From positions 1,178,001 to 1,242,000 of the forward strand of contig CP031970.1 of assembly GCA_022354845.1 (NCBI GenBank): 64,000 nucleotides of DNA, read 5' to 3'. How positions within the stretch are numbered: the stretch's first letter is position 1; each line of letters opens with the position of its first letter. Position numbers and translations under genes: made by a program. Origin of the DNA: Streptococcus suis (GTDB taxonomy: Bacteria; Bacillota; Bacilli; Lactobacillales; Streptococcaceae). Below are positions 2,861-50,978 of the stretch, one piece after another. The notes under the pieces were generated by a model, which had not been told where the DNA came from, did no database searches, and saw nothing but the letters and a program-made list of their open reading frames with translations.

Positions 2861-3517
2861 TCAGGTCAAATCAAGTAAGCCATCTCCGTTAAGAATAATT
2901 ATTCTTCTACCTGAACGTTTTATCAATCTATTATCCTCAAGAAATCTAAATTTTCTAGAAAGAGTTTCAGGGGTAGTTCCTATATATCGCGCGATATCAA
3001 TCATCTTCATAGGTAAACTGAACTGATAATCATTCGCTACTTTTGACAAATCCAAGAGGTAGCTCGACAAACGTTCCTCAACACGCTCCATAGATAAAAT
3101 CTGGGCCTGCTTCTCTACTTGAATCATCTTTTGCGCACTTAATTCAAATAATTTAAGAGCTATTTGTGGATTCCTAAGCATTACTTGATTAAAAGCTTGT
3201 TTGCTCAAGCTACAAATTTCAGTTGTTTCGAGAGCTTCACCAAAAAGTGTCTCGTTTTTTATACCAAACAACTGATTTTCACCCTCATAGCTACCCGGTT
3301 CAACGACCCGTAAAATCTGTTCATCACCATTTGTAGACAGTTGGAATACTTTCATACTTCCACGAGCTACAATATCTAGTTTTTCATCTCCTGGTTTGAA
3401 AACAACCTCATTTTTTTTAAATTGTTGGTGTCTCGCCAATTGATTGATTTCAATCTGCTCATCTTCTGACAGATAATTAAATAATGGTACAAGTGTTACG
3501 CAAAGATGTTGAACCAT
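2861..3517 (-). CDS. FLP/FNR-type Crp-family transcriptional regulator
   Basis: 218 residues: an N-terminal cyclic-nucleotide-binding-like beta-roll (about 10-120), a long dimer helix (about 121-150) and a C-terminal winged HTH. The recognition helix contains TPETLSRKF, that is ExxSR, the residues with which FNR reads TTGAT half-sites. The FNR [4Fe-4S] cysteine cluster is absent. Only two cysteines occur, C6 and C102, matching almost exactly the redox disulphide pair known for Lactobacillus casei FLP. It is the last gene of the HMA-RIC-regulator operon (27 bases after the RIC gene), whose promoter holds a perfect FNR box, so autoregulation is likely. Inference: a thiol-based redox switch controlling metal efflux. 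The ATG follows AAGAGG and is the start used for the cysteine numbering. Confidence 0.85.
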   Translation of the reverse strand: MVQHLCVTLVPLFNYLSEDEQIEINQLARHQQFKKNEVVFKPGDEKLDIVARGSMKVFQLSTNGDEQILRVVEPGSYEGENQLFGIKNETLFGEALETTEICSLSKQAFNQVMLRNPQIALKLFELSAQKMIQVEKQAQILSMERVEERLSSYLLDLSKVANDYQFSLPMKMIDIARYIGTTPETLSRKFRFLEDNRLIKRSGRRIIILNGDGLLDLT

Positions 3518-3544
3518 GGATAACCTCTTTCTAATTGACGAAAC

Positions 3545-3823
3545 CTACTCTTGAGATAATTCGACAAATTGTTTTAAGAGCTGATAGGTTTTAGTAAAAG
3601 TCTCACAAACATCATCTGGAATCGCAAAATCTTTTGTGACACCCCTTAGTTCCGAAAACTCATTTGATAGGTCCATATTATTACCCTGAATTTTATGCTG
3701 AATTGTTTCATAAAGTTTGCGAACTTCAAAAACTTCTGGATGATTTTTCCCATGAGCTTTTGTGATAGCATTAGTATATAAATCAAGCATCTCATCATTT
3801 GCTTCAAAAAATTGTTTTAACAT
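3545..3823 (-). CDS. Small RIC-like iron-sulfur repair protein (putative di-iron)
   Basis: A 92-residue helical protein. The segment ITKAHGKNHPEVFEVRKLYE resembles the HG..HPE signature of the C-terminal hemerythrin-like part of RIC/ScdA proteins, which repair Fe-S clusters after nitrosative or oxidative stress. Only a mini-version of the fold is present, and several expected metal ligands of full-length RIC cannot be placed with confidence. The gene lies between the HMA chaperone (15 bases) and the FLP regulator, in one operon behind an FNR box, which fits an oxygen, NO or metal stress role. The start at MLKQFFEAN follows a GGGGGAAG-type RBS. The family assignment is from memory of the motif, hence moderate confidence. 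Confidence 0.6.
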   Translation of the reverse strand: MLKQFFEANDEMLDLYTNAITKAHGKNHPEVFEVRKLYETIQHKIQGNNMDLSNEFSELRGVTKDFAIPDDVCETFTKTYQLLKQFVELSQE

Positions 3824-3838
3824 TACAACTTCCCCCTA

Positions 3839-4069
3839 TTATTTTTCTGATGCTTTTAGAACATCATAGCCAATTGCTCGTACTGCATTCGCAATTTCTT
3901 CAATATTTGTCAAACTTGTATCAAAATTTGCTTTTGCCTTGCTAGCGTTGAAGAGAACCTTAACACTGTTCTTATCAACACCTGCCACACTTTTAATGGC
4001 TCCCTCAATCTTTTGCATACATGTAGGACAAGCCAGTGTTTCAAGCTGTAGTATAGCTTTTTTCATCAT
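3839..4069 (-). CDS. Heavy-metal-associated (HMA) domain metallochaperone
   Basis: A 76-residue single ferredoxin-like HMA domain of CopZ type. The metal-binding loop reads LACPTCMQKIE with C14 and C17, and the C-terminal IGYDVLK strand is typical. It would bind a soft metal in the cytoplasm and pass it to the P1B ATPase encoded just upstream, which has no HMA domain of its own. It is the first gene of the operon with the RIC-like and FLP-like genes. Its promoter has a perfect FNR box at 4126-4139. The metal (Cu, Zn, Cd or Fe) cannot be told from this sequence. Confidence 0.85.
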   Translation of the reverse strand: MMKKAILQLETLACPTCMQKIEGAIKSVAGVDKNSVKVLFNASKAKANFDTSLTNIEEIANAVRAIGYDVLKASEK

Positions 4070-4097
4070 CTTTACTTCCTTTCCTTATTATATCTTT

Positions 4098-4139
4098 AGT
4101 ATAGTACAATATTTAGAATAAAAAATTGATTTATATCAA
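4098..4139 (-). promoter_or_regulatory. FNR/FLP-box promoter of the HMA-RIC-regulator operon
   Basis: TTGATTTATATCAA (4126-4139) is a perfect FNR-type palindrome, TTGAT-N4-ATCAA. On the minus strand a -10 box TATACT lies at 4103-4098, putting the start of transcription near 4091 and the box centre at about -41.5. That is the class II activator position. No -35 box is needed or seen. Confidence 0.8.
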
Positions 4140-4145
4140 GAATCT

Positions 4146-5996
4146 CTATTTTCTTTTATATTTTAAAAGCCTCATAGCATTCAAAATAACTAGGAGAATG
4201 CTACCTTCATGAACAAACATGCCAATAGCCATATTCATCCACGAACTTGAGAGAACGCTGATAAGAAGAACTACTACGACTAGCAATGAAATGAAGATAT
4301 TTTCAATCATATTACGTCGTGTAGCTTTAGCCAATCCGATCGCATGAGGGATTCTGTGAAAATCCGAATTCATCAAAACAACATTTGAAGTTTCAATAGC
4401 AACATCTGTACCGTTTCCCATGGCAATTCCAATATCTGCCAAGGCCAATGATGGGCTATCATTAATACCATCTCCGACAAATGCTACTATTTCTCCACTT
4501 GCCTGACGTTTTCTCACAAATTCTGCCTTGTCTTCTGGTAGTAGATGACCATAAGCCTCGGTTAAGCCTAACTGACTAGCAACTAAATCAACTGTGCCTT
4601 GATTATCTCCAGACAATAGAATGAGATTTTTTACTCCCATATTCTTAAGCGTCTCTAAATCCTCCTTGACTCCTTGTCTAATCTGGTCGCGAATCCCTAC
4701 AACAAGAGCTATTTGTCCATCAATAGCAGTTAGGACAATTGAATTCCCTTCTGCTTCCATCCCTGCTATGTCGCTCTTCATCTGGTTAGTGAAAGGAATA
4801 TTATATTGATTCATCAAATAAGAGTTCCCTACGAGAACTTGGTGATTTTGAATACGAGCAACAACTCCCCCACCTTGAACGACCTCTGTTGAGTCAATTA
4901 CCTCTACTACAGAACCTGAGTAATGGTTCACAATTGCTTTGGCGAGCGGATGATCTGATTCTGTCTCAACACTAGCCAGTAAGCTCTCAGCAAGACTCCT
5001 ATCACTGCTATAGTAGATTGTCTGTGCAACCTGAGGGTTACCATAAGTTAATGTTCCTGTTTTATCAAATAGCATTGTATCAACTTTACTAAAGTTTGTA
5101 ATGACATCACTACCCTTAAATAAAATACCATGTCGAGCGCCATTTCCAATCCCTGACACATTTGAAACTGGTACCCCAATAACCAATGCACCAGGACATC
5201 CAAGAACCAAAATAGTAACGGCTAACTCAATATTGCGACTAATAAGCCAAACGAGAATAGCAAGCACCAAAACTGCAGGTGTATAGTATTTTGAAAATTG
5301 ATCAATAAATCTTTCAGCTTTTGATTTGGAGTCTTGTGCTTCTTCGACTAATTCAATAATTTTCCCAAAAGTTGTGTCTTCCCCAATTTTATCAGTACGA
5401 AGTTGTATGGTCCCATTTTCGAGAATAGTACCAGCAAAAACTTTATCTCCTAGACCTTTAGAGACTGGAATAGGCTCACCTGTTATGCTAGATTCATTTG
5501 TGGTACCAGCGCCAAATATAACTTCACCATCAACTGGGATCTTACCACCTGTTTTTACTATAAGAATGTCACCTTCTTCAACTTCTTCAATCGACACCTC
5601 TTCAAAGTCACCATTGTGTGCTTTCCGAAATGCAGTCTCTGGCACCAACTCGACAAGATTCTTAATCGCAGAACGTGTCTTGGCTAATGTTCTTTGTTCT
5701 AAGTATGCACCAAACAAGAAGAGAAAAGCTACAATAGCTGATTCTTCAAACTCTTTAATAACAAATGCCCCTAAAATAGCAAGGGTCACCAAAAGATCGA
5801 TGCTAATGACCTTAACTCTAAGAGCTTGATAGGCTTGAACAAAAATTGGTAAACCGCCAACTAATGAAGCTACAAACAATAGATAAGCTGATCCCTGCTC
5901 ACTACTAAAAACCCATTTGGATGAAAAAGCAAGAATAATAAGAACACCAGTTATTGCTGTCAACCAATTTCGATAACCTGATAACCATTTTTGCAT
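4146..5996 (-). CDS. P1B-type heavy-metal-translocating ATPase with an unusual CPG motif
   Basis: 616 residues, a metal exporter of the inner membrane. It starts directly with transmembrane helices, with no N-terminal HMA domain. The actuator TGEP motif is at 172-175. The phosphorylated aspartate D311 is in DKTGTLTYG. The P1B-specific histidine-proline pair is in ESDHPLAKAI, and the hinge is GDGINDSPS. The membrane metal motif is C267-P268-G269 (LGCPGALVIG) rather than CPC or SPC, so metal choice is open. Its stop is only 6 bases from the FNR box of the next operon, and its own promoter has the same box. The chaperone next door probably feeds it. Family certain, substrate unknown. Confidence 0.9.
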   Translation of the reverse strand: MQKWLSGYRNWLTAITGVLIILAFSSKWVFSSEQGSAYLLFVASLVGGLPIFVQAYQALRVKVISIDLLVTLAILGAFVIKEFEESAIVAFLFLFGAYLEQRTLAKTRSAIKNLVELVPETAFRKAHNGDFEEVSIEEVEEGDILIVKTGGKIPVDGEVIFGAGTTNESSITGEPIPVSKGLGDKVFAGTILENGTIQLRTDKIGEDTTFGKIIELVEEAQDSKSKAERFIDQFSKYYTPAVLVLAILVWLISRNIELAVTILVLGCPGALVIGVPVSNVSGIGNGARHGILFKGSDVITNFSKVDTMLFDKTGTLTYGNPQVAQTIYYSSDRSLAESLLASVETESDHPLAKAIVNHYSGSVVEVIDSTEVVQGGGVVARIQNHQVLVGNSYLMNQYNIPFTNQMKSDIAGMEAEGNSIVLTAIDGQIALVVGIRDQIRQGVKEDLETLKNMGVKNLILLSGDNQGTVDLVASQLGLTEAYGHLLPEDKAEFVRKRQASGEIVAFVGDGINDSPSLALADIGIAMGNGTDVAIETSNVVLMNSDFHRIPHAIGLAKATRRNMIENIFISLLVVVVLLISVLSSSWMNMAIGMFVHEGSILLVILNAMRLLKYKRK

Positions 5997-6021
5997 GATT
6001 AATACCTCCCTTATTGTCTCT

Positions 6022-6063
6022 AGTATAAATGAGTATAAAAATATAAGAATTGATTTATATCAA
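6022..6063 (-). promoter_or_regulatory. FNR/FLP-box promoter of the P1B ATPase gene
   Basis: TTGATTTATATCAA (6050-6063), the same 14 bases as at 4126-4139, with a -10 box TATACT at 6027-6022 on the minus strand. The distance from box centre to -10 box is 34.5 bases in both promoters, placing each box at about -41.5. Confidence 0.8.
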
Positions 6064-6202
6064 GTTTTAAAAATACTAGAATGTCTAGATTGTTTCAAAT
6101 ACATCTAACTATGTTCAATTGATTTAATGATATTAATCATAGACTTATATCTTAATAATTCTATTCGGTTACGATAGTGTCAGTTCTAAAAATTTTGACT
6201 AT

Positions 6203-6226
6203 AAAAAAACCTACCATTTCTGGTAG
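6203..6226 (-). terminator. Rho-independent terminator of the UDG-family gene
   Basis: On the minus strand the hairpin CTACCA-GAAA-TGGTAG is followed by G and seven T. It lies about 40 bases after the stop at 6264. Confidence 0.8.
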
Positions 6227-6263
6227 ATTGTTTAAAAACGATCTTCTGTACATTTCCGAATCT

Positions 6264-6842
6264 TTATTTAAGAATTGCTTTAACACGTTCCTGCAAAGCA
6301 GGAATAACCTGATCTAGAAACCAAGGATTTTTAGACTGCCAAATATTATTACGTGGCGAAGGGTGCACAAGGGGGAAAAATTCAGGTAGATATCTATCGA
6401 AATTCTTTACAGTATTGGTTAATTTTTCCGTCGATCTCTGTTTTAAGTAATATCGTTGAGCATAGGCACCAATCAAAAGTATTAATTGTTTATTTGGCAT
6501 GAGATCTAATGTTTTCTTATGCCATTTTTCTGCAAATCCTTTTCTTGGAGGTAAGTCCCCCGTTTTACCTTTTCCAGGAAAATAATAATCCATTGGGACC
6601 ACTGCAAAATATCCAGAATCATAAAAACATTCTCTATCAATACCTAACCATTCACGAAGCTTATTGCCGCTTAAATCATTGAAAAATATACCTAACTCTT
6701 GAGCACGAATACCCGGTGCTTGTGCTATGATTATAATTTGAGCAGTCTCTGGAGCAGAAAAAAGTGGTTTTATCCCTTTTTCTGTATATGAAATATTATC
6801 TTCATCGTACATGATTTCTTTTAAAAGTTTTGAATAGCTCAT
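6264..6842 (-). CDS. Uracil-DNA glycosylase-family protein
   Basis: 192 residues with the fold motifs of the UDG superfamily. IIIAQAPGIRAQELG corresponds to the water-activating and uracil-binding GQAPG-like loop. LVHPSPRNN corresponds to the HPSP-type minor-groove loop near the C-terminus. Such proteins excise uracil or related lesions, though several members of this branch lack a tested activity. It is a single gene with its own terminator at 6203-6226, divergent from the ABC exporter operon. The ATG has a modest RBS (AAAGGACG) upstream. Confident on the superfamily, less so on substrate. Confidence 0.8.
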   Translation of the reverse strand: MSYSKLLKEIMYDEDNISYTEKGIKPLFSAPETAQIIIIAQAPGIRAQELGIFFNDLSGNKLREWLGIDRECFYDSGYFAVVPMDYYFPGKGKTGDLPPRKGFAEKWHKKTLDLMPNKQLILLIGAYAQRYYLKQRSTEKLTNTVKNFDRYLPEFFPLVHPSPRNNIWQSKNPWFLDQVIPALQERVKAILK

Positions 6843-6951
6843 TCAAATCGTCCTTTCTCTTTATTACTATATTGTAGCATCTTTGTATGAGGGAAAACTT
6901 GATGCTTCTCAATTTTGTTAGCAAATTTCAATTTAAATTTTAAAAAATAAT

Positions 6952-7004
6952 TTGACAAGTAAGTGATTATCCACTATAATAAAAAAAGTGAGTGATTACT
7001 CACT
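6952..7004 (+). promoter_or_regulatory. Promoter of the ABC-tetR operon with two TetR-type operators
   Basis: TTGACA (6952-6957), a 17-base spacer and TATAAT (6975-6980). A perfect palindrome AGTGAGT-GATT-ACTCACT lies at 6987-7004 over the expected transcription start. A second, imperfect copy AGTAAGT-GATT-ATCCACT fills the spacer at 6958-6975. The two are 29 bases apart. Binding at either would block RNA polymerase. Confidence 0.75.
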
Positions 7005-7023
7005 TACTTAGAAAGAGGCTCTT

Positions 7024-7746
7024 ATGGAAAAATTATTAGATTTACAAGCAATCTCTAAAAACTTTGGGCAGCAGCTTGTTCTTGACAAGATCAATTTTGA
7101 CTTGATAGCTGGTCAAATTATCGGTTTAATCGGCCCATCCGGTGCTGGAAAATCAACCATGATTAAAACCATGCTTGGGATGGAAAAGGCGGATCAGGGA
7201 GAGGCGCTTGTGCTAGGGCATCATATGCCCAACCGCTATGTCTTGGGAGAAATTGGTTATATGGCACAATCGGATGCCCTCTATGAGTCACTGACGGGTT
7301 TCGAGAATCTGCAATTTTTTGCCCGGATGAAGGGACTGTCTCGCGCTGAGATTCCTGAAGCCATTAAACATGTCTCACAAGTTGTCGAACTAACGGAGCA
7401 CCTCAATAAGTCCGTTTCAGGCTACTCTGGCGGTATGAAACGTCGATTGTCTTTAGCCATTGCACTTTTAGGGAATCCTAGACTCCTCATTCTTGATGAG
7501 CCAACTGTTGGTATTGACCCTGCTCTGCGCCGTCAGGTTTGGAAAGAACTACATCAATTGAAGTCTGAAGGGGTTGGCATATTGATTACCACCCATGTCA
7601 TGGATGAGGCGGAACTGACAGATAAGGTTGGACTGTTGCTTGATGGCAAATTGATCGCCTTTAACAGCCCCATTGCCCTTAAGTCATCATATGGTGTCAA
7701 TACAGTTGAGGAAGTTTTCTTGAAAGCAGAGGGAGAAATAGAATGA
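7024..7746 (+). CDS. ABC-2 exporter, ATP-binding protein
   Basis: 240-residue nucleotide-binding domain. Walker A is GPSGAGKST (about 36-44), the signature motif is SGGMKRR, Walker B is LLILDEPTVGID, and the switch histidine is in ITTHVMDEAE. The closest general class is the DrrA/CcmA-like drug and antibiotic exporters. It overlaps the permease gene by four bases (ATGA), so the two are translationally coupled. It powers the ABC-2 permease encoded next. It lies first in a three-gene operon controlled by the TetR protein at its end. The substrate is unknown. Confidence 0.92.
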   Translation: MEKLLDLQAISKNFGQQLVLDKINFDLIAGQIIGLIGPSGAGKSTMIKTMLGMEKADQGEALVLGHHMPNRYVLGEIGYMAQSDALYESLTGFENLQFFARMKGLSRAEIPEAIKHVSQVVELTEHLNKSVSGYSGGMKRRLSLAIALLGNPRLLILDEPTVGIDPALRRQVWKELHQLKSEGVGILITTHVMDEAELTDKVGLLLDGKLIAFNSPIALKSSYGVNTVEEVFLKAEGEIE

Positions 7747-8927
7747 AGATTTTGGCCATTTCAAAAAAAGTATTCCTGGAACTATTACGTGATAAACGAA
7801 CCCTAATCCTATTATTTATAGCGCCTGTTTTTATCATGTGGCTCATGAATGCTGCTTTTTCCGCTAATACTGAAACAAATGTCAGCATCGCTGCCGTCGA
7901 TGTTTCCGATAGTATTGTCAAATCCCTAGACGATGTGAAACAAATTAAGGCCAAGGATTATAAAACAGAAAGCAAGGCAAATCAGGCTTTAGAAAATCAG
8001 ACAGTCGATGCCGTCCTTATTTTCAAGGACGAAAACGACTACCAGGTAACATATGCCAATACCGATCCCGGCAAAACAAACTTGACCCGTCAGGTCATAA
8101 CGAGCACCCTCAAGCAAGCGCAAATTCAGGACCTAATCGAAAATTTCAAGAAGGCACAAGAAGCCAGTGCTCAAGCTGTTAAAAAGGCACAAAGCCAGTC
8201 TGGCAATTTACAAGCCGGCGATTCTAATGAAGTAAATATTGATCAAGCCGAAACAGAAGAAATTGATAGTTCTCAAGGTGATGATATTAACCTCTCTGAA
8301 CAATATATTTATGGAGATGAGGACACCACTTTCTTTACCAAAATGACTCCTATTCTGATGGGCTTCTTTGTCTTCTTCTTTGTTTTTCTCATCTCAGGGA
8401 TGGCTCTTTTGAAAGAACGTACCACGGGAACACTGGATCGTCTCCTAGCCACACCAGTCAAGCGATCTGATATCGTCTATGGCTACATGCTGGCTTATAG
8501 TTTTATTGCAGCACTTCAGACAGTTGTTATTGTCTTATCAACCATCTGGCTCTTGGATTTGGAAGTTCTTGGCAATATAGGAGATGTCATCATTGTCAAT
8601 ATTCTTTTTGCGCTAGTCGCTCTGGCATTTGGTCTCCTGCTGTCCACTTTGGCCAAATCCGAATTCCAAATGATGCAATTTATCCCGCTTATTATCACTC
8701 CGCAACTTTTCTTTTCAGGTATTATTCCTTTAGATTCTATGACAGGCTGGGTGCAATCTATTGGGAAAGTACTCCCACTTTATTATGCCGGGCACGCCTT
8801 ATCAAAAATTGTTCTGAACGGTACCAGCATTGTCTATCTTGGAAATGACCTACTTGTCCTTTCCTTGTTTCTAGTCATTTTAACAATTTTGAATATCGTT
8901 GGACTAAAACGCTACCGCAAGGTATAA
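7743..8927 (+). CDS. ABC-2 type permease (multidrug or lipid exporter subunit)
   Basis: 394 residues. One N-terminal membrane helix (about 20-40) is followed by a large extracytoplasmic loop (about 41-195) rich in Q, A, K and E. Then come five membrane helices from about residue 200 to the end, the ABC2_membrane_3 layout. FFFVFLISGMALLKERTTGTLDRLLATPV is the characteristic cytoplasmic coupling region. It pairs with the ATPase just upstream. The TetR context suggests an efflux pump induced by its own substrate. Confidence 0.9.
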   Translation: MKILAISKKVFLELLRDKRTLILLFIAPVFIMWLMNAAFSANTETNVSIAAVDVSDSIVKSLDDVKQIKAKDYKTESKANQALENQTVDAVLIFKDENDYQVTYANTDPGKTNLTRQVITSTLKQAQIQDLIENFKKAQEASAQAVKKAQSQSGNLQAGDSNEVNIDQAETEEIDSSQGDDINLSEQYIYGDEDTTFFTKMTPILMGFFVFFFVFLISGMALLKERTTGTLDRLLATPVKRSDIVYGYMLAYSFIAALQTVVIVLSTIWLLDLEVLGNIGDVIIVNILFALVALAFGLLLSTLAKSEFQMMQFIPLIITPQLFFSGIIPLDSMTGWVQSIGKVLPLYYAGHALSKIVLNGTSIVYLGNDLLVLSLFLVILTILNIVGLKRYRKV

Positions 8928-8949
8928 TAGAGAAGAAAAGAATGAGGTA

Positions 8950-9591
8950 ATGATGGATAACAACACGATTTTGCATAGCTATCAGAATTGGCTGGAAGCA
9001 CAAAAAATGCCTGCTGGAAAAAAGAAAACCCTTTCTGCTGCTATTGAACTGTTTTCGCGGCAAGGTTACAATGGAACTTCGACTGCCCAAATTGCAGAAA
9101 AAGCTGGTATTAGTCAGGCCACCATTTTTAAATATTTCAAAACCAAAGAGGAGCTTTTATCAGAAATTATTAAGCCCCTCATTCCTGAGTTGAAAAAAGA
9201 ATTTCTGCCCAAATTGAAGACCTATAGCAAAATTGAAGATGTTGTTCACTTTATTGTCCAGAATCGTTTTCGTTTCTTAGCTCAAAATGCAGACATAATA
9301 AAAATAATACTTCAGGAAATCTTAGTTAATTCAGAACTACGTCAGAGTCTAATGGTTGCTATTCAAGATACTATTATTGATGATTTGAAAATGCAGCTAA
9401 ACCGGTTACAAAATGATAACCCCAATATTGTTATTTATCAGGAAGATTGTGAGGTTATCCGCACAGGCTTAGGACTCCTATTTGCATACTTTTTTCAACG
9501 ATTTGTTCTTGAAATTTCAACTCAGTCAGAGGAGGAAGATTTGAAGTGCATTGAAGAACAGCTTACTAAACTGATAACAACAAAAGTTTAA
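8950..9591 (+). CDS. TetR-family regulator of the ABC exporter operon
   Basis: 213 residues, longer at the N-terminus than many TetR proteins. The HTH is at about 30-75 (AIELFSRQGYNGTSTAQIAEKAGISQATIFKYFKTKEELL reads through the standard TetR fold). The C-terminal helical ligand domain is divergent, as usual. It is last in the exporter operon, 22 bases after the permease. The two palindromes in the operon promoter are its likely operators, giving ligand-released autorepression. A second methionine follows immediately (ATGATG), so the exact start is uncertain by one residue. Confidence 0.9.
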   Translation: MMDNNTILHSYQNWLEAQKMPAGKKKTLSAAIELFSRQGYNGTSTAQIAEKAGISQATIFKYFKTKEELLSEIIKPLIPELKKEFLPKLKTYSKIEDVVHFIVQNRFRFLAQNADIIKIILQEILVNSELRQSLMVAIQDTIIDDLKMQLNRLQNDNPNIVIYQEDCEVIRTGLGLLFAYFFQRFVLEISTQSEEEDLKCIEEQLTKLITTKV

Positions 9592-9618
9592 TGAGATTAT
9601 ATCTACTATTTTTCAAAA

Positions 9619-10426
9619 GGTTCTGTTGCGAAGTTTGAAAATCAAACGCGCCCTCTCTGAACTCCAAATATCTTAGGCTGTTATTCCCATTAATACCTTG
9701 ATTTCAGTAGACACCGAAAAGCCGAAGAGCGTTCCATTTCTTCGGTTCTTTTTATATATTCCTCGAATGGTCTCCATGCCCTTAATCGTGGAAGAGGCTG
9801 TACGGAGACTTTGATAAAATTTATTTCGTCGTTTAATAGGTCGATGGTCTTGTTCTATTAAATTGTTAAGATACTTCACAGTTCGGTGCTCTGTCTTAGT
9901 ATATAAACCCACACTCTGTAACTTTCTAAAGGCGGAGCCAAGAGAAGGTGCTTTATCGGTCACAATTGCTTTCGGCTCACCAAACTGTTTATGGAGTCGT
10001 TTTAAGAAAGCATAGGCTGCTTGCGTATCCCGTTTCTTTCGTAACCAGATATCTAAGGTTAAGCCGTCCGCATCAATTGCACGATAAAGATAATGCCAAC
10101 GTCCCTTAATTTTGATATAGGTTTCGTCCATTTTCCATGAATAGAAGGATTGTCTATTTTTCTTCTTCCAAAGATAATAGAGGACTTTGCTGTACTCTTG
10201 CACCCAACGATAAATCGTAGTATGACAAATATTTATTACACGATCATATAACAATTCCTGAACTTCACGATAGCTTAGATTGTAACGCAGGTAGTAACCA
10301 ACAGCGACAATAATGACGTCTTTTTTGAATTGTTTCCCTTTAAAATGATTCATTACTCTGTCCTCTCTGTCTTTTTTCTCAATTTTACACTAAAATAGAT
10401 TTTTTGGAAAACTTTGCAACAGAACC
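9619..10426 (-). mobile_element. IS1216-type IS6-family element, copy 1
   Basis: 808 bp bounded by the inverted ends GGTTCTGTTGC(G/A)AAGTTT, with one transposase gene. The flanking octamers TTTCAAAA (left) and TTCTACTG (right) do not match, so there is no target duplication. The 54 bases between the left end and the transposase stop differ strongly from copy 2 although the genes are nearly identical. Confidence 0.95.
9673..10353 (-). CDS. IS6-family (IS1216-type) transposase, copy 1
   Basis: 226 residues, the full family length. It has an N-terminal HTH (YNLSYREVQELLYDR to TTIYRWVQEY) and the DDE core: D in KMDETYIKIKG, D in AIVTDKAPS, E in NLIEQDHRPIKRR. It differs from copy 2 by only a handful of residues: VINI for GINV, DADG for DAEG, and IYKKN for INKKN. 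It moves by replicative cointegrate formation, so two copies in the same orientation can mobilise what lies between them. Intact and probably active. Confidence 0.95.
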   Translation of the reverse strand: MNHFKGKQFKKDVIIVAVGYYLRYNLSYREVQELLYDRVINICHTTIYRWVQEYSKVLYYLWKKKNRQSFYSWKMDETYIKIKGRWHYLYRAIDADGLTLDIWLRKKRDTQAAYAFLKRLHKQFGEPKAIVTDKAPSLGSAFRKLQSVGLYTKTEHRTVKYLNNLIEQDHRPIKRRNKFYQSLRTASSTIKGMETIRGIYKKNRRNGTLFGFSVSTEIKVLMGITA

Positions 10427-15820: not shown

Positions 15821-16628
15821 GGTTCTGTTGCAAAGTTTTAAATAAAGAATAAAATCCCTTACGGTATCTATGATTTAAGCTGTTATTCCCATTAATACCT
15901 TGATTTCAGTAGACACCGAAAAGCCGAAGAGCGTTCCATTTCTTCGGTTCTTTTTATTTATTCCTCGAATGGTCTCCATGCCCTTAATCGTGGAAGAGGC
16001 TGTACGGAGACTTTGATAAAATTTATTTCGTCGTTTAATAGGTCGATGGTCTTGTTCTATTAAATTATTAAGATACTTCACAGTTCGGTGCTCTGTCTTA
16101 GTATATAAACCCACACTCTGTAACTTTCTAAAGGCGGAGCCAAGAGAAGGTGCTTTATCGGTCACAATTGCTTTCGGCTCACCAAACTGTTTATGGAGTC
16201 GTTTTAAGAAAGCATAGGCTGCTTGCGTATCCCGTTTCTTTCGTAACCAGATATCTAAGGTTAAGCCTTCGGCATCAATTGCACGATAAAGATAATGCCA
16301 ACGTCCCTTAATTTTGATATAGGTTTCGTCCATTTTCCATGAATAGAAGGATTGTCTATTTTTCTTCTTCCAAAGATAATAGAGGACTTTGCTGTACTCT
16401 TGCACCCAACGATAAATCGTAGTATGACAAACATTTATTCCACGATCATATAACAATTCCTGAACTTCACGATAACTTAGATTGTAACGCAGGTAGTAAC
16501 CAACAGCGACAATAATGACGTCTTTTTTGAATTGTTTCCCTTTAAAATGATTCATTACCCTGTCCTCTCTGTCTTTTTTCTCAATTTTACACTAAAATAG
16601 ATTTTTTGGAAAACTTTGCAACAGAACC
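15821..16628 (-). mobile_element. IS1216-type IS6-family element, copy 2
   Basis: 808 bp with the same inverted ends and orientation as copy 1. The flanking octamers AGATATAC and ACTGAGAA do not match each other, nor do they match those of copy 1 in the cross-combination expected of a recent composite insertion. Confidence 0.95.
15875..16555 (-). CDS. IS6-family (IS1216-type) transposase, copy 2
   Basis: 226 residues, nearly identical to copy 1 and closer to the standard sequence (DRGINVCHTTIYRW, IDAEG). All DDE residues and the HTH are present. With copy 1 it brackets 5.4 kb of accessory genes in direct orientation, which allows the block to be excised as a circular translocatable unit by the known IS6 mechanism. 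Confidence 0.95.
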   Translation of the reverse strand: MNHFKGKQFKKDVIIVAVGYYLRYNLSYREVQELLYDRGINVCHTTIYRWVQEYSKVLYYLWKKKNRQSFYSWKMDETYIKIKGRWHYLYRAIDAEGLTLDIWLRKKRDTQAAYAFLKRLHKQFGEPKAIVTDKAPSLGSAFRKLQSVGLYTKTEHRTVKYLNNLIEQDHRPIKRRNKFYQSLRTASSTIKGMETIRGINKKNRRNGTLFGFSVSTEIKVLMGITA

Positions 16629-50072: not shown

Positions 50073-50978
50073 ATGTTTGATTTCAATCAACTTCCTACCT
50101 CCGTTCTGCAGGCGGGGGCTATTTTCCTGTCTATTATCATTGAAGCCTTACCCTTTGTATTGATTGGAGCATTGATTTCTGGTTTTATCGATGTGTTTAT
50201 CACCCCTGAGAAAGTACATAAACTCCTTCCCCAAAACAGGGTTCTCGCCATTCTTTTTGGCACCTTTATTGGTTTTATTTTTCCTTCCTGCGAATGTGGG
50301 ATTGTTCCAATTGTCAATCGATTATTGGAGAAAAAAGTTCCCCAATATACAGCTATCCCATTCCTAGTTACTGCTCCTGTAATCAATCCCATTGTACTAT
50401 TTGCAACGTATACTGCATTTGGTAATTCTATGCTTTTTGCCACGTATCGTGCCTTAGGAGCAATCCTTGTTTCAGTCGTACTGGGGATCATTCTAGGTTT
50501 CTTTGTAAAAAATCCGATACTGAAAGAAAATAATTTAAGCCATCACCAACATGATTATTCCAATAAGACAAGCTTGCAAAAAGTCGGTTTTGCACTTATT
50601 CATGCTATTGATGAATTTTTTGATACGGGTCGCTATCTGGTTTTCGGTTGCCTTTTTGCTAGTTTGGTTCAGGTTTATATTCCAACTGCTGTCCTGACGA
50701 CTATTGGTCACAATCCATTATCTGCCATTCTGCTGATGATGTTATTGGCGTTTCTTCTTTCACTTTGCTCAGAGGCAGATGCCTTCATCGCTGCATCTCT
50801 TTTATCAAGTTTTGGCTTTGCTCCGGTGATGGCCTTCTTGGTCATCGGACCAATGATTGATGTCAAAAATTTACTCATGATGAAACATTACTTTACAGGT
50901 AGATTTATTATTGGATTTATCTCGGTTATAACTCTAGTCATTCTAGGGTATAGTCTCCTACTTGGAGGTGTGTCATGA
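50073..50978 (+). CDS. YraQ/DUF318-type membrane permease
   Basis: 301 residues from MFDFNQLPTS. An alternative ATG at 50061 is directly behind the only SD-like bases (AGCAGG) and is less likely. About eight membrane helices. The signature FPSCECGIVPIVNRLLEKKVP, a PxCxCG-type motif seen in this family, sits in the first half, and SLCSEADAFIAASLLSSFG in the second. The family includes putative metal or organic-arsenic permeases. It overlaps the TIGR03943 gene by four bases. In B. subtilis the homologous pair ycgR-ycgQ is zinc-responsive. Confidence 0.85.
   Translation: MFDFNQLPTSVLQAGAIFLSIIIEALPFVLIGALISGFIDVFITPEKVHKLLPQNRVLAILFGTFIGFIFPSCECGIVPIVNRLLEKKVPQYTAIPFLVTAPVINPIVLFATYTAFGNSMLFATYRALGAILVSVVLGIILGFFVKNPILKENNLSHHQHDYSNKTSLQKVGFALIHAIDEFFDTGRYLVFGCLFASLVQVYIPTAVLTTIGHNPLSAILLMMLLAFLLSLCSEADAFIAASLLSSFGFAPVMAFLVIGPMIDVKNLLMMKHYFTGRFIIGFISVITLVILGYSLLLGGVS

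Follow-up and report, generated by a model that had tools for sequence, protein, structure and literature searches.

The stretch analyzed here, hereafter the window, comprises 64,000 nucleotides of Streptococcus suis DNA (GenBank assembly GCA_022354845.1, contig CP031970.1, positions 1,178,001 to 1,242,000 of the forward strand), and all coordinates refer to it unless another sequence is named. It hosts a module of four genes on the minus strand, which encode a P1B-type metal ATPase, a small HMA-domain protein, a short RIC-like protein and a Crp/Fnr-type regulator of the FLP family. Two FNR-type boxes lie in front of these genes, one before the ATPase gene and one before the unit formed by the other three. 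The module is composed of the following features:

2861..3517, minus strand: FLP1, Crp/Fnr-type regulator of 218 aa (cNMP-binding and Crp HTH domains, PF00027 and PF13545; cysteines 6 and 102 only; ETLSR helix)
3545..3823, minus strand: short RIC-like protein of 92 aa (TIGR03652, 37.6 bits against a cut-off of 204.7)
3839..4069, minus strand: HMA-domain small metal-binding protein (CPTC) of 76 aa (PF00403, 41 bits against 24.8)
4098..4103, minus strand: predicted -10 element TATACT of the HMA-RIC-FLP unit, 22 bp from box 1
4126..4139: FNR-type box 1 (TTGATATAAATCAA on the minus strand), centre 4132.5, predicted position -41.5
4146..5996, minus strand: P1B-type metal ATPase of 616 aa (TIGR01525, 553.8 bits, over the cut-off; GCPGALV and HEGS)
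6022..6027, minus strand: predicted -10 element TATACT of the P1B gene, 22 bp from box 2
6050..6063: FNR-type box 2, centre 6056.5, predicted position -41.5

The first-pass annotation of this DNA had reported two identical boxes, both centred at -41.5, before the HMA-RIC-regulator operon and the P1B gene. Both boxes are where it had placed them: TTGATTTATATCAA is present at 4126-4139 and at 6050-6063, and the 22 bp to TATACT were confirmed for each, the start itself being predicted. The box centre lies 34.5 bp from the start-proximal T of TATACT, which returns -41.5 if that T is taken as -7. The predicted starts fall at ~4091 and ~6015 and leave leaders of ~20 nt. Judged from the position of the -10 element, both promoters have a class II layout, with the palindrome TTGATNNNNATCAA at -41.5. 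The identity of the two boxes holds in the window and is not conserved, since in 9 out of 11 close relatives the HMA box reads TTGATAGAAATCAA, one base off the P1B box. We therefore rejected it as the key point, the sameness of the two boxes being incidental. The rarity of the motif alone was rejected as evidence as well: the window contains 3 perfect boxes and 13 sites with at most one mismatch, compared to a shuffle mean of 7.3, and 6 out of 100 shuffles of the window reach 13 such sites. The weight is carried by the place and spacing of the boxes, not by the motif itself.

A scan of a collection of species genomes returned 35 loci, which span Streptococcus, Lactococcus, Ligilactobacillus, Enterococcus, Lactobacillus, Bifidobacterium, Coriobacteriia, Staphylococcus, Macrococcoides, Tissierellia and further taxa. 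We later set aside three alphaproteobacterial ATPases (L052, L053 and L055; 38% identity, no module), and the gene order P1B-HMA-RIC-FLP is found in 26 of the 32 remaining loci. We compared 61 promoters, four from the window and from a second module of the same genome (see below) and 57 from relatives in Bacilli, Bifidobacterium, Coriobacteriia and Tissierellia. These were chosen for a box with at most one mismatch lying 45-80 nt before a module gene, and four with uncertain gene starts were included by hand. A TANNNT follows the box at exactly 22 bp in 59 of the 61 promoters and at 23 bp in L041 and L048. After removal of redundancy, in which a promoter was dropped if at least 70% identical to one already kept, TANNNT is found at +22 in 20 out of 21 promoters, with a maximum of 6 in 2,000 shuffles. 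None of these 21 promoters has a -35 hexamer with a match of 4 or more, and the best -35 match at a spacing of 16-18 bp averages 2.33 of 6, compared to 2.57 when shuffled. At L029 the DNA around the P1B promoter diverges from that of the window, except for the box and the -10 element.

To count boxes gene by gene, we considered 71 module loci (L021-L051, L054, L059-L087 and L171-L180) and accepted a box with at most one mismatch 20-130 nt upstream of the gene. Boxes precede 51 of 70 P1B genes, all 51 with the spaced TANNNT, and 65 of 82 HMA genes, 59 with the spacing. RIC (10 out of 59) and FLP (4 out of 55) genes are boxed less often, both being usually internal to the operon, and 6 of 10 Dps or ferritin-like genes are boxed, 3 of them with the spacing. 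The half-site TTGAT occurs in 116 of the 152 P1B and HMA promoters, and none of the 19 other ways to arrange its letters exceeds 5 out of 152.

The first-pass annotation had proposed to scan the genome for the box. Across the whole genome (G000, 2,026,249 bases, one contig) we found 19 perfect boxes, compared to 2 for the reversed pattern. According to our own reading of the open reading frames (ORFs), 15 of them lie within ORFs and 4 are intergenic; all four intergenic boxes belong to two paralogous P1B ATPase/HMA/RIC-like/FLP modules. One of the 15 boxes within ORFs, at 50077-50090 of the window (L012), lies just 16 nt past the predicted start of its ORF. A perfect box with the -10 spacing gives six strand-wise matches, namely the four module promoters, one site in an ORF and box 2 read in reverse; when one mismatch is allowed and the spacing is still required, there are 21 matches in the genome and 8 in the control. 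The second module lies at 831-836 kb in the order FLP2, box, RIC, P1B, box, HMA, and its P1B ATPase is 65% identical to that of the window. The earlier interpretation is partly supported, the boxes belonging to the module; it had overlooked the second module, the mobility and the iron/oxidant context described below.

To extend the comparison to a population, we sampled 295 genomes of the order, 115 with the ATPase at E ≤ 1e-170 and 180 without; the sample includes 45 other genomes of the window's genus, all of them without the ATPase at this threshold. The box followed at +22 by TANNNT occurs on average 2.69 times per genome with the ATPase and 0.79 times per genome without it (0.23 and 0.24, respectively, for the reversed control). 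Among the 150 places listed, 125 are in ATPase genomes, and 56 of these 125 lie within 5 kb of the ATPase start, where a rough estimate of the expectation is under 1%; 65 lie within 12 kb. We also inspected 35 stretches with boxes elsewhere, picked by hand mostly for a good -10 element or for their distance from the ATPase. In these stretches boxes precede genes for FMN-binding proteins and stand-alone HMA, RIC and FLP genes. Correctly spaced boxes were also seen before the gene of a tyrosine-coordinated heme protein (HTHP) in two genomes (L130, L194), a DUF6448-type gene in three (L144, L146, L186) and the gene of a quinol-type nitric oxide reductase (NorB) in one (L136, 2118-2300).

A second class of FLP-like regulators is encoded divergently from an acyl-CoA dehydrogenase gene (L132 1831-3868, L140, L143, L189-L191), with a cysteine-rich start in L132, L140 and L143. 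A TTGATTTAAATCAA box with this same +22 spacing marks the promoter of the acyl-CoA dehydrogenase gene, which by eye is followed by Etf-like genes. This FLP-like regulator with its TTGATTTAAATCAA box looks like a separate regulon.

FLP proteins are two-cysteine Crp/Fnr regulators of Gram-positive bacteria, defined by two conserved cysteines, one N-terminal and one in the core. FLP1 fits this pattern. We aligned it with the best 120 of 322 homologues: Cys6 is retained in 118 and Cys102 in 120 of the 121 sequences, both are present in all 32 module FLPs, and FLP1 and 110 of the 121 aligned sequences have exactly two cysteines. For the module FLPs and the other motif counts within modules, we discarded FLPs on the other strand or shorter than 190 aa (including a split FLP in L042) and ATPases shorter than 600 aa or with less than 45% identity. 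The ExxSR recognition residues noticed in the first-pass annotation proved to be invariant, as E184, S187 and R188, within an ETLSR present in 121 out of 121 sequences. The solved structures closest to the FLP family profile are those of FNR, and FLP Cys102 aligns with an FNR cysteine; a four-cysteine FNR was rejected on the cysteine counts given above. The DNA-reading part of FLP is FNR-like and the sensing part is not. Genome searches for the PF00027 sensor domain returned two Crp/Fnr proteins only, FLP1 and FLP2, in agreement with a search using FLP1 as the query; a third Crp/Fnr protein such as FlpS, considered as a possible binder, was not found in either search. A search for the helix-turn-helix (HTH) domain alone gave 30 matches at E ≤ 1, three of them over the cut-off, corresponding to the two FLPs and one partial match (27.4 bits, cut-off 27), which lies at none of the places hit by the sensor-domain search.

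FLP2 (L020 2766-3530) has a His-rich N-terminal extension with extra Cys (HDVTHTHHQGHESASHASC), absent from FLP1, which is a possible metal site.

The window ATPase scores over the cut-offs of TIGR01512 and TIGR01511 in addition to TIGR01525. In the aligned module ATPases the metal-site helix retains GCPGALV in 33 out of 33 sequences and the last helix retains HE[GA]S in 32 out of 33; in the window this last motif reads HEGSI, and the T of HEGST is missing. Passages of a published account describe SPC and HEGST as the marks of P1B-4 iron pumps (PMC7012047), and we rejected P1B-4 membership because all 33 sequences have CPG instead of SPC. The same genome holds a separate SPC/HEGST pump (35% identical), a CPC pump and a CPH pump. 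The CPxC motif is present in 35 out of 35 module HMA proteins, whose best family matches in the case of the window are CopZ models, under their cut-offs. The RIC-like protein has no Pfam match; its C73 is retained in 33 out of 33 sequences of the module set and H24 and H28 in at least 95%, and a plasmid relative is annotated as 'iron-sulfur cluster repair di-iron protein, ric'.

As an observation on its own, the CPH-type ATPase (G000 C1:1802773-1804401, L184) starts with a long repetitive N-terminus rich in His, Met and Asp.

The unit is shared between genera at the DNA level. In all 12 loci compared, which come from several genera, the DNA is 91-97% identical to the unit of the window. Four of these loci (L021-L024) share the region from 2868 to 9618, including the uracil-DNA-glycosylase-superfamily (UDG) gene, the ABC transporter and the TetR gene, and L025 shares less of it. 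In the other seven, similarity stops at box 2 or at most ~60 bp past it. Four genomes, Streptococcus henryi and three Lactococcus (laudensis, raffinolactis and chungangensis), match the 6.75-kb block 2868-9618 and its UDG, ABC-2 type transporter and TetR genes at 93-97% identity, and on this identity we take the block to be the product of a recent transfer between genera.

Related modules are also found on plasmids. Among 72,556 plasmid records the ATPase is matched on 446, of which 191 are typed as mobilizable and 152 as conjugative, and the FLP on 455. No near-identical plasmid copy of the window's module was found, and protein searches gave more distant plasmid copies, of which we analyzed ten stretches in detail. 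Lactococcus lactis pGdh442 and pVF50 have an operon of P1B, HMA, a weakly ferritin-like protein and FLP, and plasmids of Enterococcus faecalis, Weissella and Leuconostoc carnosum have P1B, HMA, Dps and FLP. This Dps or ferritin-like gene in the slot of RIC suggests an iron/oxidant context for the module. In Enterococcus faecium and Ligilactobacillus salivarius the Dps, FLP, HMA and P1B genes are each boxed with a spaced -10 element, the box being perfect for FLP and with one mismatch for the other three. L. carnosum pKLC2 also carries a VIT1-family gene and fetB, no more than 5 kb from the module. On a Tetragenococcus plasmid (L175 78-4803), repeated HMA-RIC pairs together with Dps and DUF6448 genes stand upstream of P1B.

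The boxes, their class II layout, the missing -35, their exclusivity in the genome, the cysteine pair, the gene content and the transfer of the unit are all directly visible in the DNA. The explanation that we favor, and consider likely, is a self-contained, horizontally spread stress module that is activated by its own FLP, amplifies itself and uses the boxes as operators. FLP1 would bind TTGATNNNNATCAA at -41.5 and, as a class II activator, recruit RNA polymerase at promoters that lack a -35. The P1B pump would be switched on from one box, and the HMA protein, the RIC-like protein and FLP itself from the other, so that FLP would raise its own level and the module would amplify its own expression. 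Sites of the same type probably place the second module (FLP2, RIC, P1B and HMA, with boxed RIC and HMA) under shared control. Oxidant or nitrosative stress, sensed by the Cys6/Cys102 pair, would be the likely trigger, and the response would likely consist in exporting or handling ferrous iron, or another divalent metal related to it: RIC in this genome, or Dps in the plasmid copies, would repair or sequester iron in the cell and the pump would remove it.

The steps of this scheme differ in strength. That FLP binds the boxes is very likely in our estimate, and that it activates rather than represses is only slightly less so. A cysteine switch in FLP is about an even call, and iron as the main cargo falls a little short of that. 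We place the module in an iron/oxidant setting because of the Dps/ferritin-like, VIT1, FetB, HTHP, NorB and DUF6448 partners and because HEGS is as in P1B-4 iron pumps. L. casei FLP reportedly uses a disulfide to switch DNA binding, and from this behavior we take the oxidized form to be the active one. The first-pass annotation had described a closed circuit with a redox-sensing regulator. For the window's module the case for a closed circuit appears strong, and a positive loop is likely because FLP1 lies downstream of a box; the case for redox sensing is weaker. The closed loop does not extend to the second module, where no box with at most one mismatch precedes the FLP2 gene in the stretch searched around it, and by sequence it therefore applies only to the module of the window. 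More tentatively, the modules may represent an iron/oxidant cassette, with a dithiol Crp/Fnr activator, a near-invariant box at -41.5, a new P1B subgroup (CPG and HE[GA]S), its own CPxC chaperone and interchangeable RIC and Dps, carried across Bacillota and Actinomycetota by plasmids and islands and forming here perhaps the whole regulon of both Crp/Fnr proteins.

Together with the missing FLP2 box, several observations weigh against the explanation that we favor. Binding, activation, the redox switch and the metal are all inferred, and the -10 elements and starts are predictions. The PDB relatives closest in sequence to the ATPase are copper pumps, the SPC of P1B-4 pumps is absent from it, and the ferritin-like protein of pGdh442 scores 22.1 bits, under the Pfam cut-off of 24.5. 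Boxes are missing from 19 of 70 P1B genes and 17 of 82 HMA genes, and the spaced TANNNT is absent from 6 of the 65 HMA promoters that have a box. Nine of the 19 unboxed P1B genes lie behind a boxed RIC, which agrees with a box placed ahead of whichever gene leads the unit, and the other 10 are unexplained. This rule does not hold everywhere: in L067 and L074 P1B is boxed itself although RIC precedes it, and neither gene is boxed in L044 and L066. Genomes without the ATPase have more spaced boxes than the control (0.79 and 0.24, respectively), and other factors or regulators therefore use such sites; among the 125 places listed in ATPase genomes, 60 are more than 12 kb from the ATPase. Finally, genes that resemble glyA and glyQ by eye are also boxed and look unrelated to stress. 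As the stretches were hand-picked and include these look-alikes, the list of boxed genes elsewhere is only suggestive.

Of the alternatives, the first concerns the metal. The module may export zinc, cadmium or copper instead of iron, with FLP responding to the metal or to the resulting loss of thiols, which we regard as possible, somewhat below an even chance. The CopZ models among the best matches of the HMA protein favor a cargo other than iron, the ATPase matches three heavy-metal models broadly (TIGR01525, TIGR01512 and TIGR01511), and an ArsR/CadD cadmium pair adjoins the module on one E. faecium plasmid. The FLPs of L. lactis are also said to be linked to zinc, according to the title of a cited reference. 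However, iron is indicated by the Dps, RIC, VIT1 and FetB partners, the HEGS of the last helix is close to the HEGST signature of P1B-4, and the genome has separate CPC, CPH and SPC/HEGST pumps besides the module ATPases.

The second alternative retains the circuit and changes the signal: FLP would activate as an anaerobic, reduced-state regulator like FNR, or as a sensor of nitric oxide (NO). We find this possible and less likely than not. RIC proteins are linked to NO damage, and a correctly spaced box precedes the quinol NO reductase gene, although in a single genome. FNR structures are the closest solved ones by sequence, but the two cysteines of FLP1 and of 110 of the 121 aligned sequences are too few for a four-cysteine cluster. 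Passages of a study of S. suis report FlpS to be more active at low oxygen (PMC5039431), but FlpS, whose target is arcABC, is distinct from the module FLPs.

Alternatively, FLP may repress, with the boxes serving as operators through which the promoters are silenced. Repression is possible from binding beside a promoter, and the effect of FLP is deduced here from the layout; on the other hand, the rigid distance of 22 bp to the -10 element and the missing -35 form the layout of class II activation, and the FF-41.5 promoter is in use, according to passages of PMC4505428, as a class II FNR-dependent reporter. We therefore hold repression to be unlikely. That the boxes are chance or functionless hitchhikers in recently transferred DNA is very unlikely, to the point of being negligible: one-mismatch sites are common and relatives with 91-97% identical DNA are not independent, but the box is retained in 21 promoters less than 70% identical to each other, and the spacing in 20 of these, and permuted half-sites stay far below TTGAT (at most 5 compared to 116 out of 152).

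Three further features lie upstream of the P1B gene:

6208..6229, minus strand: terminator-like hairpin between the UDG gene and the P1B promoter (consensus match only)
6264..6842, minus strand: UDG-superfamily gene (PF03167), which accompanies the module in L021-L024
6899..6912, minus strand: near-box TTGAGAAGCATCAA before the UDG gene, with TACAAT at 6871-6876 at the same +22 spacing

The UDG gene is a possible accessory member of the module. The near-box, which is among the 21 spaced matches with up to one mismatch in the genome, is kept in four related loci, with changes in one, and may tentatively be taken as a regulatory site, given that its copies are few and closely related. Farther upstream, the ABC transporter/TetR genes are preceded by a perfect TTGACA-17-TATAAT promoter and, behind it, the palindrome AAGTGAGTAATCACTCACTT (6952-7005), which is possibly the TetR operator. 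On the other side, an IS3-type element (1649-2793) lies directly past the FLP1 stop codon. Similarity to relatives ends at 2868, and FLP1 ends in GLLDLT, compared to GLIDL in L022 and L025, so that the insertion changed only the last residues. Two ORFs beside the module (489-1364) resemble pieces of a tyrosine integrase, and two near-identical transposase-like ORFs of 226 aa lie ~6 kb apart (9673-10353 and 15875-16555), all recognized by eye.

These observations reduce the regulon of a little-understood FLP family to a question that can be asked in one genome, with two FLPs and four intergenic perfect sites, while the promoter layout is kept from Streptococcus to Bifidobacterium and Coriobacteriia. 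The motif set of CPG with HE[GA]S is unlike those of the genome's other pumps and of P1B-4, and makes the cargo directly testable. Plasmids of food and gut bacteria carry related cassettes, and many of these plasmids are typed as mobilizable or conjugative, as would befit a defense that brings its own wiring; if our explanation is true, a self-amplifying switch from redox to metal moves ready-wired between hosts. Among the literature matches listed, which cover few subscription papers, there is no description of the P1B-HMA-RIC/Dps-FLP architecture, and older FLP papers may contain part of it. Nor do these matches show FLP linked to a P1B pump that has a matching box of its own, or the replacement of the ferritin-like protein by RIC.

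Compared to known systems, the module shares individual traits with several. Segments of the RIC-like protein around H24-H28 and C73 match parts of the ScdA and RIC models, as in RIC/YtfE, but at 92 aa it scores far below the curated cut-offs. Like FlpS/ArcR-type regulators of S. suis, the module FLPs are FNR-like proteins in Streptococcus; FlpS sits by arcABC and activates it, according to passages of PMC5039431, and no third Crp/Fnr protein was found in this genome. With the P1B-4 iron exporters PmtA, PfeT and FrvA, as described in passages of PMC7012047, the ATPase shares HEGS in the last helix and the setting of oxidant and iron defense; it differs in having CPG for SPC and in that FLP boxes replace the control by PerR/Fur. 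A parallel in promoter layout is the class II promoter FF -41.5 of Escherichia coli FNR, which shares the box TTGATNNNNATCAA, the position -41.5 and the E..SR residues; according to passages of PMC4505428, E209, S212 and R213 of FNR read the box and four cysteines hold the cluster. Unlike E. coli FNR, FLP1 has no four-cysteine cluster site, and the intergenic perfect boxes are confined to four promoters, perhaps five with the near-box. In L. lactis MG1363, passages of PMC3547956 describe a binding motif proposed for FlpA that is absent upstream of flpB. As with the FLPs of lactic acid bacteria (L. casei FLP; L. lactis FlpA and FlpB), FLP1 is a Crp/Fnr protein encoded at the 3' end of a small operon. 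Published operons of the form orfX-orfY-flp reportedly exist for FLP regulators, and the shape of the module operon matches that of the lactococcal plasmid operon, where on L. lactis pGdh442 two perfect boxes stand at the +22 spacing and the FLP is 49% identical.

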